Shown piece by piece: positions 37,481-40,343 of a stretch of 64,000 nucleotides of DNA (the first letter of the stretch is position 1; each line of letters begins with the position of its first letter). The stretch spans positions 284,039 through 348,038 of the forward strand of contig JANQPI010000020.1 in assembly GCA_028289585.1 (NCBI GenBank), written 5' to 3'. The stretch is from Candidatus Zixiibacteriota bacterium. Its GTDB lineage: Bacteria > Zixibacteria > MSB-5A5 > GN15 > FEB-12. The position numbers and the translations under genes were made by a program. The notes below the pieces were generated by a model that did no database searches, was not told the DNA's origin, and saw nothing but the letters and a program-made list of their open reading frames with translations.

Positions 37481-37555
37481 GACCCCTTCGTCTAGCGGTT
37501 AGGACACCGCCCTTTCACGGCGGCAACACGGGTTCGATTCCCGTAGGGGTCACCA
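37481..37555 (+). tRNA. tRNA-Glu (anticodon TTC)
   Basis: Acceptor GACCCCT pairs with AGGGGTC (37545-37551), discriminator A, encoded CCA 37553-37555. Anticodon stem CCGCC/GGCGG with loop CTTTCAC; anticodon TTC at 37514-37516. The CCA is also the first three bases of a CCAAC-TTT-GTTGG hairpin that follows. Confidence 0.97.
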
Positions 37556-37969
37556 ACTTTGTTGGTCTCTGCTGCTTAATCCGATTCCCCTTGCCCACCG
37601 CTAGCAGTGCTCCCCCCAATCAACTTTGTTGGCTCCTACTGTTCTATCCGCTTCCAGACGTGCACAACAACCCTAAGTTTTGCCATCACAGATACGTCAG
37701 CGACGCCCTTGACACCTCAGCATTGAAAGACCACTTTGTGGTCCGATTGACCCCTTCGTCTAGCGGTTAGGACACCGGCCTCTCACGCCGGCAACACGGG
37801 TTCGAGTCCCGTAGGGGTCACCAACTTTGTTGGTCTCTACTGGCACTTTCGCTTCCATTCGCTCACCCCTAGCTTTGCTCCCGCCCAACCAACTTTGTTG
37901 GTCTCTACTGGTGATCTCGTTTCCCAGCGTCGACTCCCAGCCTTGCTCCCCACCAACCGACGGCGTCGG
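37553..37969 (+). repeat. Periodic hairpin array around the tRNA-Glu genes
   Basis: Short hairpins CCAAC-TTT-GTTGG at 37553-37565, 37821-37833 and 37889-37901, a reduced one at 37621-37631, GACCAC-TTT-GTGGTC at 37729-37743, and CCGAC-GGC-GTCGG at 37957-37969. Successive units are 67-68 bp apart and share flanks (TCTCTACTGG after the hairpin; CTAGC...GCTCCCC later in the unit). Two hairpins start exactly at the tRNA CCA ends. No gene lies in this stretch. Confidence 0.75.
37749..37823 (+). tRNA. tRNA-Glu (anticodon CTC)
   Basis: Nearly identical body to the TTC gene: acceptor GACCCCT/AGGGGTC, CCA encoded at 37821-37823, anticodon stem CCGGC/GCCGG with loop CTCTCAC and anticodon CTC at 37782-37784. 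A GACCAC-TTT-GTGGTC hairpin ends 5 nt before its 5' end. Confidence 0.97.
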
Positions 37970-38051
37970 CTTCTACTGGCAGATCCGTTTCTACCTGTTC
38001 ACCACTAGCAGTACTCCCCACGGCACGGTCGGTCTGTTGAGACGACGCTCG

Positions 38052-40343
38052 CTAAAGATCGAGGCTCAGACCAAACACCACCGCCCGCGGTGAGCCCGGC
38101 CCATAGATATACGCCGAGTCGCGTTCCGCTCCGGAGTCAAGATCACCTTGGAATTCATTCGCGATATTCCGGACACCGAACGTGAACTCCAACGGCATAC
38201 CCGATCGACCCATCGTGAAGCGATAGCGAGCGAGCAGATCGACCTCAACAAAACTCTCGACCCAGCGAAGTGTCTGATCCAGCTCTCGCGGTACTTCCAT
38301 CGGACCCGTGTACCTCCCGATGCCGGTAAGTGACACTGATTCAAAAAGTGACCAGCGAACCATCGCCTGCCCATAGACATCGGGCGTCCGAAGAAATCGA
38401 TTCGAGAACCGTCCCTCAAACACCTCGACCTCCTCAGCAAACTCGGCAGTCTGGATAGTCGCTCCGAGCTGCCCCAGAATCGGTCCGACAGAAAAACCAA
38501 TCTCTGACTCGATACCCTGCACGGTCGCATCGCCGGCATTGAACCGTTCGGTGAGCAACTGCCCGCCACCACCAACGCCGATGTCGCGCTGGGCAAACGC
38601 ATCGCTCAGATCGGTTCGGAAGGCAGTCGCCCCAATCGAGATCATGCCGCGGCGGATGTCGATCTCCTGCTGAAGCGAAAACGAATAGCTGTTGCTGCGC
38701 TCCTCTCGCAGACTCTCGGCATTGACAATGACGCGTTGGGCGCCGGCGACGTTCTCAATGTGCAGGTCCTCATCAAACACCTGGGGGGGGTTGAAACCGG
38801 CCGCGTACGACAGTCGAGCGGTCAGGGTCGGTGTCACATGCCAGCGAAATGCAATCCGCGGAGCAACCATCGGATCCGACAGCAGTGAGTGCGTCTCGAT
38901 CCGCGCCCCGGTGAGAAGCTCAAACTCGTTTCGAATACCAAACGATACCGACGCCTGAGCGTAGGCACCGACCGATGTATAGTTCTCATCGATGACACGC
39001 GTGTCGGATTCGCCAAAGGTCTCATCACGAATCCCCTCGACCTTCGATTCAACACCCGCGGTCACGGTCGTTCGACCCAATCGACGGTTCACCTGCCCGG
39101 AGAGAGTCCACAACGGGTTGGTCGTTGATCCGTAACCGGTCGATGATTCCAAAAAGTCGACGCTTTCCGGATCAGCACCCGCCAGACCACCATAGAATGA
39201 ACGTCGATCGGTATAGGCGACCGCCGACGTCAGCGAGTAGTCAAGATCACGATTCAGACGATGTTCCCAACGCACCTCACCCGAATAGCGCCAGTGCTCC
39301 AGCTCCTCCGCGATATCAACGGTATGAGCGGGATTGTCGAGCCGATCGCCACCCCTGCGATACTCGTGCGTGTAAGTCGCATTGAGCGATAGCACCTGCC
39401 CCGGCGACGGCCGAAACTGCCAGCTGCCACCAATCCCCTCGCCCCGGATGCGAACGAGATCGGAGAAGCCATCGCCATTGACATCGTGCGCGTCACGTCG
39501 ACGAATCGAACCATGGAGAAAGCCACCGGAGGTGCCGGTTTCGTTGAGGCGTTCGAGCGTGAATTCGAGCGTGTTATCACTGTCACCGTCAACAGCCGTC
39601 AACCCGTACTCGATTGTCGCCCGGTTGTCGGTGGCACGCCGTGGAATAATGTTTACAACACCGGCGACAGCCGCCCCACCATAGACCGCCGAGCCACCAC
39701 CCTTAACGACTTCGATGCGATCGATCAGCGCCTCGGGGATCTGTTCCAGACCGTAGACTCCCGCCAAACCGGAAAAACTCGCCTGGCCGTCGAACAGAAG
39801 CTGCGTGTACTTCCCCTCCATTCCCAGCAGACGCAACTGTGTGAAACCGCAATTCTGGCAGTTGTTCTCAACCCGGAGCCCGGTCTCCAGCTTGAGCGCT
39901 TCGGCAAGGTTCACCGCACCGGCCGATTCGATTGCCAGACGGTTCACTACCTCGGTCTTGACCGGAACATCTTTGTACAGCTGAGGTGTTCGTGTGCCGG
40001 TCACGACCATTGTGCCGCCGTCGACCATCATCGGTCGCAGCGCGAGAGTCACCCGCTCCGGACTTTCGCCGGCAGCAATGACAAGCGTGGTATCAAGCGT
40101 TTCGAAACCGATAGCGCTAACGCGGAGTCGAAACTCCTGCGTGTGATCGACCTTAAGTGAGAATCGACCGTCGTGATCCGCAATCACACCCATATCCGTA
40201 TCCGGCAGGGTGATAGTTGCCGCGGCGACTGGATCGCCATTGGAACCGTTGACAACCTTGCCGTTGACAGTAACGCCAGCGGTGAGTGGTGACGCCAGGG
40301 CCGCCAGAACGAGCCAGCCACAGACAATACGCCGAATGATCAT
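38052..40343 (-). CDS. TonB-dependent receptor with carboxypeptidase-regulatory-like N-domain
   Basis: 763 aa outer-membrane receptor. Signal peptide (1-22), a CarboxypepD-reg-like/SusC-type N-domain (VNGKVVNGSNGDPVAAATIT, about 25-105), plug (about 115-235), then a 22-strand-type barrel ending in YGPGSPRAVVFGLSLDL. The plug carries ENNCQNCGFTQLRL with Cys162/Cys165, a motif seen in some Bacteroidota receptors. Ligand unknown; metal chelate or metallophore is possible. AGGAG precedes the ATG, and two tandem palindromic operators lie 43-71 bp upstream. Confidence 0.88.
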   Translation of the reverse strand: MIIRRIVCGWLVLAALASPLTAGVTVNGKVVNGSNGDPVAAATITLPDTDMGVIADHDGRFSLKVDHTQEFRLRVSAIGFETLDTTLVIAAGESPERVTLALRPMMVDGGTMVVTGTRTPQLYKDVPVKTEVVNRLAIESAGAVNLAEALKLETGLRVENNCQNCGFTQLRLLGMEGKYTQLLFDGQASFSGLAGVYGLEQIPEALIDRIEVVKGGGSAVYGGAAVAGVVNIIPRRATDNRATIEYGLTAVDGDSDNTLEFTLERLNETGTSGGFLHGSIRRRDAHDVNGDGFSDLVRIRGEGIGGSWQFRPSPGQVLSLNATYTHEYRRGGDRLDNPAHTVDIAEELEHWRYSGEVRWEHRLNRDLDYSLTSAVAYTDRRSFYGGLAGADPESVDFLESSTGYGSTTNPLWTLSGQVNRRLGRTTVTAGVESKVEGIRDETFGESDTRVIDENYTSVGAYAQASVSFGIRNEFELLTGARIETHSLLSDPMVAPRIAFRWHVTPTLTARLSYAAGFNPPQVFDEDLHIENVAGAQRVIVNAESLREERSNSYSFSLQQEIDIRRGMISIGATAFRTDLSDAFAQRDIGVGGGGQLLTERFNAGDATVQGIESEIGFSVGPILGQLGATIQTAEFAEEVEVFEGRFSNRFLRTPDVYGQAMVRWSLFESVSLTGIGRYTGPMEVPRELDQTLRWVESFVEVDLLARYRFTMGRSGMPLEFTFGVRNIANEFQGDLDSGAERDSAYIYGPGSPRAVVFGLSLDL

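Follow-up and report, generated by a model that had tools for sequence, protein, structure and literature searches.

The nearest described case to the repeats reported here is the RtT element of the Escherichia coli tyrT operon (RF00391), which is recognized by the stable RNA that is released during tRNA processing. RtT units recur with a period of about 178 bp, and each contains a copy of roughly the last 19 nt of the tRNA, starting from A58. Other known elements share some of these features. Intrinsic (Rho-independent) terminators consist of a G+C-rich stem followed by a run of T. Integrative elements and islands that target tRNA and tmRNA genes have 3' fragments of the gene repeated at the far end of the inserted DNA, and the T-loop is a usual integration point in tRNAs. 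Integrons are recognized by attC sites with a GTTRRRY/RYYYAAC core and by an IntI integrase, while REP elements, with their RAYT transposases, are small extragenic palindromes that follow a GTAG-type tetranucleotide rule. In the open-access literature, we found no paper on RtT repeats with tyrT, on hairpins at tRNA CCA ends, or on arrays of such hairpins.

Here, an array of short hairpins at two tRNA-Glu genes of a Candidatus Zixiibacteriota genome was analyzed within a 64,000-nucleotide stretch of contig JANQPI010000020.1, positions 284,039 to 348,038 (referred to as the window). The layout is that of E. coli tyrT, with tandem units following duplicated tRNA genes, one group lying between the tRNAs and more after the second. 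Many units in related Zixibacteria, like those of E. coli, also repeat the tRNA end. However, the window units contain no tRNA sequence before nucleotide (nt) 73, and E. coli tyrT and tyrV lack a hairpin at nt 74 (0 to 1 of 5 pairs). Neither the sequence nor the covariance model of RtT matched; Rfam gave only tRNAs in the window and in the relatives' arrays, while giving four RtT matches in E. coli. The initial annotation had called the element undescribed; this holds for Rfam 15, but RtT is a close architectural parallel. The array thus appears to be a variant of tRNA-linked tandem repeats, whereas its CCA-anchored hairpin is apparently undescribed.

Hairpins open on the CCA of both tRNA-Glu genes

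The features of the locus are collected in Table 1. Inspection of the sequence and a repeat search bore out what had been observed initially, namely, that hairpins follow both tRNA-Glu genes and continue downstream at 67- to 68-bp spacing, that two of them open exactly with the encoded CCA, that three share one sequence while a fourth is changed on both arms, and that a separate hairpin precedes the second tRNA. The hairpins proved more widespread than had been claimed, and a fifth, closed by a U-G pair, was found in the array. All five are 13 nt long, and the units are spaced by 67, 68, and 68 bp. Within the units, preservation is highest across the hairpin and the nine bases that follow it.

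Table 1. Positions of tRNA genes, hairpins, repeat units, and the adjoining gene in the window
Feature	Position	Strand	Basis and remarks
tRNA-Glu(UUC)	37481..37555	+	ARAGORN; Rfam tRNA, 65.5 bits; encoded CCA at 37553-37555
tRNA-Glu(CUC)	37749..37823	+	ARAGORN, Rfam; encoded CCA at 37821-37823
Hairpin 1, CCAAC-TTT-GTTGG	37553..37565	+	Sequence and register test; 5' arm opens with CCA of tRNA-Glu(UUC)
Hairpin 2, TCAAC-TTT-GTTGG	37620..37632	+	Sequence; closing pair U-G
Hairpin 3, CCAAC-TTT-GTTGG	37821..37833	+	Sequence; on CCA of tRNA-Glu(CUC)
Hairpin 4, CCAAC-TTT-GTTGG	37889..37901	+	Sequence
Hairpin 5, CCGAC-GGC-GTCGG	37957..37969	+	Sequence; both arms changed, A-U to G-C
Separate hairpin, GACCAC-TTT-GTGGTC	37729..37743	+	Sequence; 5 nt upstream of tRNA-Glu(CUC)
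Array unit 1 (67 nt)	37552..37618	+	Repeat search, unit alignment
Array unit 2	37619..37686	+	Repeat search; most diverged (60% to reference)
Array unit 3 (68 nt)	37820..37887	+	Repeat search, TRF
Array unit 4 (68 nt)	37888..37955	+	Repeat search, TRF
Array unit 5	37956..38023	+	Repeat search
TonB-receptor gene, convergent to array	38052-40343	-	Pfam; array ends short of gene

The second tRNA-Glu gene and its first unit form an 86% copy of the first gene and its unit, and the five stacked units, with no gene between them, probably arose by tandem duplication. Besides the convergent TonB receptor, the neighbors include a thioesterase-like gene and a histidine kinase (Pfam). The units share with the tRNA only the sequence from nt 73 onward, unlike the units of relatives. 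A decay of duplicated tRNA genes, which had been named initially as an alternative origin, is ruled out, as the units start at about nt 73 without a tRNA body and Rfam has no match across the array other than the two tRNAs themselves.

The tyrT-like order of tRNA, unit, tRNA, and units could also mean that the array is the tail of the tRNA-Glu transcript, which would yield small RNAs or a Rho-dependent stop, with the hairpins protecting or cutting the tail. On the transcribed strand, the array spacers (37566-38023) are C-rich and G-poor (C, 0.35 to 0.44; G, 0.13 to 0.17), as is typical of Rho-loading sites. However, the spacers fold no better than shuffled sequences (z between -1.7 and +1.3), which speaks against a structured small RNA in the spacer; moreover, the RtT model is unmatched and the spacers of relatives' arrays are often AT rich. 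We consider such a transcribed spacer very unlikely.

The hairpin has a fixed register and loop size

The genome that contains the window has 47 tRNAs, and the T-loop served to place 45 of them. Four of these carry a perfect hairpin of five pairs and a 3-nt loop starting at nt 74, while any other offset up to 149 has at most one. The background for such hairpins in this genome is 0.0018 per position, corresponding to about 0.08 expected at nt 74. The four carriers are the two tRNA-Glu genes, tRNA-Val(UAC) (CACGC-TTT-GCGTG), and tRNA-Arg(UCU) (CAGGC-TTT-GCCTG), the latter two without an encoded CCA; tRNA-Lys(CUU) has the same kind of hairpin with one mismatch (CCAAC-TTT-ATTGG).

The same register was seen in an unselected sample of four complete tRNA sets (this genome and three relatives; 173 tRNAs), picked regardless of hairpins. 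Hairpins with a 3-nt loop and a stem of 5 bp or more that begin precisely at nt 74 occurred in 9 of the 173 tRNAs, against 0.49 expected per other offset (Poisson, 3e-9), and loops of 2 nt or of 4 to 8 nt were absent at nt 74. In a separate search, when the gap between CCA and TGG was scanned from 4 to 11 nt, a peak appeared at 7, the gap of a 13-nt hairpin. A genome-wide scatter of hairpins is ruled out by the low background and by the lack of a pileup at other offsets. In the four complete tRNA sets (G000, which is the genome of the window, G045, G016, and G009), CCA is encoded in only 53 of the 173 genes, and in many of those without it a T-run directly follows nt 73.

Three-nucleotide-loop hairpins also end at, or 5 nt before, the 5' ends of some tRNAs. 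These include ACATGC-AAC-GCATGT and ACAAGC-ACA-GCTTGT, with loci at the tRNA-Arg genes of two relatives (L121 in G015 and L127 in G062), and the GACCAC-TTT-GTGGTC hairpin of the window.

Pairing is kept while the sequence changes

Across the family, stems vary in sequence yet stay paired, as in CCAAC/GTTGG, CATGC/GCATG, and CAGGC/GCCTG. Even tRNA-Leu(UAG) in four species of a single genus carries CCAGC-CTG-GCTGG, CTAAC-ATT-GTTAG, CCAGC-ACG-GCTGG, and CATGC-TGT-GCATG. A pattern search over 54 family genomes that fixed only C74 and G86 returned at least about 150 matches. Among the matches listed, 24 of the 145 rows analyzed from relatives had perfect stems, while 5,000 reshuffles of the 3' arms gave a mean of 2.0 and a maximum of 8; none of 57 listed rows that were mostly chance matches outside tRNAs had one. 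Among 28 distinct hairpins, double changes occur at four of the five pairs, but this set was chosen for pairing and is illustrative only. A conservation test on it is biased by that choice, so the argument rests on the arm reshuffling and on the register and loop tests.

Since the same type of hairpin, with different sequences and matched arms, occurs on other tRNA genes of relatives, its structure seems to be under selection, judging from sequence comparison. Selection had initially been proposed from the A-U to G-C change in the window; that change is weak on its own, being reached by 103 of 500 shuffles within the array, and the proposal now rests on the family-wide constraint.

The distribution of the hairpin is patchy. 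Conservation of the tRNA-Glu hairpin in relatives was not found, as it is missing at the orthologous genes of 28 of them. Hairpins at nt 74 are also few among the 97 tRNA-Leu ends of 36 genomes, and most tRNAs of the family genomes lack one. At the order and class levels, a search limited to TTT loops gave no clear case. Outside Zixibacteria, a conserved CCA hairpin, G-CCAGC-TTT-GCTGG-C, is found at the tRNA-Asn end in five Bradyrhizobium species (L159, L161, L186, L191, and L196).

A T-tract follows the hairpin

In hairpin-bearing tRNAs, T reaches 0.79, 0.86, and 0.68 at nt 88 to 90, the second to fourth nucleotides after the hairpin, whereas hairpin-less tRNAs have their T peak at nt 77 to 81 (0.44 to 0.68). 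After 784 background hairpins of equal size, T is 0.27 (range, 0.24 to 0.29; Fisher, 3e-20 versus tRNA hairpins). The T-tract therefore moves together with the hairpin and sits right behind it, an arrangement that resembles terminators or U-rich sites of cleavage. This shift makes a role in 3'-end formation plausible and agrees with the effect on 3' processing that had been suggested initially.

In most relatives, the hairpin resembles an intrinsic terminator in having a T-rich stretch directly behind it. Nevertheless, the family hairpin has only five pairs, is often A/T rich, and is fused to the mature tRNA end. In the window, the stems are weak (about -3.7 kcal/mol) and the tails read TCTCT rather than a U-run; a terminator scan called none in the array.

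Tandem copies of the tRNA end occur downstream of hairpins

A tandem copy of the tRNA end and hairpin was found within about 350 nt downstream in 10 of 29 hairpin-bearing tRNAs, compared to 3 of 216 others (Fisher, 2.6e-8), and each of the latter three has either a near-hairpin or a hairpin that differs slightly in size. Besides the 67 to 68 bp of the window, short periods were found in G064 (43 to 52 bp), G012 (51 bp), and G062 (66 bp); the gene downstream of the G064 and G012 short-period arrays, named by eye from its sequence, we take to be that of trigger factor. A period of 89 to 93 bp recurs in G045 (two tRNAs), G016, G015, G066, G005, G012, G009, G058, and G013, and one tRNA-Ser locus of G015 has a period of 110 bp. 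The 89- to 93-bp class occurs at many nonhomologous loci (tRNA-Leu, -Arg, -Ser, and -Gln and tmRNA), and its spacers are 28% identical, the level of chance, and show no unusual folding. Several relatives' units repeat 13 to 28 nt of the tRNA 3' end. Some tandem copies keep the stem by double changes of CCAAC/GTTGG, to CCATT/AATGG in G016 and to CCAGC/GCTGG in G045, while other downstream copies have lost one pair.

Similar arrays exist in other phyla. Two Spartobacteria (tRNA-Glu; L163 and L187) and an actinobacterium (tRNA-Ser; L164) have a CCA hairpin with tandem tRNA-end repeats, with periods of 146 bp (L163) and 101 bp (L164), and one of the Spartobacterium arrays shows a compensatory change from CCAAC/GTTGG to CCAAT/ATTGG.

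In four genomes, the array hairpins at tRNA-Ser and tRNA-Gln are preceded by the motif GTTCKAYATGTATCCCAAGTNNCCCG (CCAG at tRNA-Gln; L334, L324-L328, and L149). The motif resembles a tRNA 3' end to which bases have been added and is absent from the viral contigs searched. A phage or plasmid origin was considered and set aside, as two array motifs were unmatched in viral contigs and the tRNA-Gln site was unmatched in plasmids.

These arrays could also have arisen without any selected function, if mutation by template switching, in which one arm is copied onto the other, created short inverted repeats at tRNA ends and kept their arms matched, and replication slippage multiplied them. Such an origin would account for the patchy presence of the hairpins and their fast turnover between sister species, for downstream copies that have lost pairs, for the similar cases in other phyla, and for the co-occurrence of arrays and hairpins, which is expected if hairpins stall replication. 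However, it does not account for why the hairpin begins precisely at nt 74 and keeps strictly to a 3-nt loop, for the T-tract right after the hairpin, or for the recurrent 89- to 93-bp spacing, and we regard it as improbable.

Relatives carry genes between copies of tRNA and tmRNA ends

In the window, there is no tRNA 3'-end copy with DNA in between; such copies were found in relatives at tRNA-Ser, tRNA-Gln, and tmRNA. In G015, past tRNA-Ser(UGA), an open reading frame (ORF) of 254 amino acids without an assigned family is flanked by hairpin units, and a 132-nt stretch recurs 1,050 bp apart. A 130-nt stretch of tRNA-Gln end and hairpin recurs with 98% identity 3,250 bp away in G012, around a 680-amino-acid ORF, and in G058, tRNA-Ser and a decayed copy of its own 3' end enclose a TIR/SEFIR gene (PADLOC bSEFIR, 2.6e-46). 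A displaced tRNA-Leu end at L124 was dropped as a mobile copy, since an assembly gap (a run of N) breaks the tRNA gene there.

Displaced tmRNA 3' ends number four in G009 and two in G016, at distances of 1.1 to 5.3 kb, with more in G049, G007, G057, and G066; most have GGTCACAATnnGGTCACAATAGGGTGTAAGTCC... upstream. Across the series at L340 (G009:C3), L341 (G016:C3), L353 (G049:C119), and L355 (G007:C2), the spacing is 1.1 to 6.3 kb. Between these ends lie ordinary genes (methyltransferase, dehydrogenase, beta-lactamase fold, and kinase), and the series form cassette-like islands. Of the displaced tmRNA ends with a fully preserved core, three have a perfect hairpin and most have none. As most of the copies that bracket genes lack it, the hairpin is not needed for bracketing at tmRNA.

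A search with PF00589 found no tyrosine recombinase on the G009, G016, G066, and G015 contigs that hold bracketed-gene sites; its matches lie on other contigs or beside hairpin-less tRNAs. A tblastn search with a long ORF from an integrase locus, which may not be the integrase itself, gave no match at these loci, so that the PF00589 search counts for more; no recombinase was found beside the arrays. Overall, such insertions do not require the hairpin, nor does the hairpin by itself bring them about. An ordinary tRNA-integrase attachment site is weakened as an explanation, as the integrases of the window's own genome flank hairpin-less tRNA-Met, tRNA-Ser, and tRNA-Gln.

The relatives' loci resemble tRNA- and tmRNA-targeting integrative elements in the repeated 3' fragments at the far end of inserted DNA. 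They differ in that units can be 51 to 93 bp long, gene-less, and stacked several deep, that the hairpin sits on the CCA, and that single genes are bracketed without a recombinase. In some relatives, short palindromic repeats between single genes of mostly the same direction recall integron cassette arrays, but such a series starts at a tRNA or tmRNA gene, no integron integrase adjoins, and the array units inspected by eye have no attC core motif. REP elements are likewise small extragenic palindromes; in contrast, the Zixibacterial hairpins are fixed on tRNA nt 74 and follow no GTAG-type tetranucleotide rule. A RAYT/REP origin was rejected, as Y1 transposase genes are scattered and not generally beside hairpins. 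At L127 (G062:C1:2787600-2788900), a short ORF with an HUH-like motif, GYVVMPEHVHLV, recognized by eye, adjoins a hairpin-bearing tRNA-Arg, and REP-like CCCACAGC..GCTGTGGG hairpins are also present; Pfam Y1_Tnp had no match in G062.

It is possible, although on balance unlikely, that the hairpin acts at the DNA level. Together with another copy of the tRNA end, some 91 bp further downstream, it would make up a composite attachment site, recognized either as a folded strand or through a protein complex bridging the two copies. The arrays would then be stacked sites, and the bracketed genes would be integron-like cassettes that are anchored on the tRNA gene and mobilized by a recombinase whose gene lies elsewhere. 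The recurrence of the 89- to 93-bp distance at nonhomologous loci with chance-level spacer identity argues for such a site, as do the genes between copies in several genomes, the strong tie of tandem copies to hairpins, and the frequent start of repeats near the T-loop. Against it stand the lack of a tyrosine recombinase on the contigs concerned, the location of own-genome integrases beside hairpin-less tRNAs, the absence of the hairpin from most preserved tmRNA-end copies and of a second copy at 19 of the 29 hairpin tRNAs, and the gene-less 67- to 68-bp units of the window.

A terminator-like trailer as a tentative explanation

We tentatively favor, at somewhat less than even confidence, a terminator-like 3'-trailer hairpin of tRNA and tmRNA genes that spread, and came to be stacked, as DNA was duplicated or inserted at the 3' ends of tRNA genes. 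Its basic part would be a stem of five (occasionally six) pairs with a 3-nt loop that starts at nt 74, takes the CCA, where encoded, as its 5' arm, and is followed by N-UUU. The hairpin most likely acts in the transcript, where a minimal structure of this kind, terminator-like or stopping processing, would set the 3' end of the precursor, with the loop, 3' arm, and tail presumably removed during tRNA maturation. Action at the RNA level is suggested by the T-tract shift, the exact nt-74 register, and the kept pairing. DNA traffic is suggested by the arrays, the 89- to 93-bp spacing, and the bracketed genes. From these we infer that the module may be gained and exchanged along with DNA duplicated or inserted at tRNA 3' ends, so that copies of the tRNA end and hairpin would pile up downstream as arrays. 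In relatives, incoming DNA would bring its own tRNA end and trailer, as if keeping the tRNA working. Several points count against the trailer reading, including the TCTCT tails and the negative terminator scan in the window, the weak stems, the many hairpin-less tRNAs, among them the relatives' orthologous tRNA-Glu, the absence of the hairpin from most gene-bracketing tmRNA-end copies, the start of the window units at nt 73, and the lack of a recombinase by the arrays. Overall, what was first observed at this locus is confirmed, and the interpretation then given to it is partly supported.

A further proposal, which is speculative and which we hold to be rather unlikely, is that Zixibacteria carry a tRNA-anchored, integron-like cassette system. 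The recombination site would consist of a tRNA or tmRNA 3' end bearing the CCA hairpin, plus another tRNA-end copy some 91 bp further on. Single genes without a recombinase of their own would stack between sites, and after every insertion the hairpin would preserve the function of the tRNA 3' end. The window array would be the empty, gene-less form.

In bacterial tRNA genes, one would not expect a precursor structure in which the CCA end is tied up and pairing is preserved through compensatory change. If the hairpin acts in 3'-end formation, it would represent a new, testable route by which tRNA transcripts are ended or matured in an uncultured phylum. Its link with tRNA-end arrays and bracketed genes bears on the origin of repeats like E. 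coli RtT and on how integrase-less islands build up at tRNA genes.
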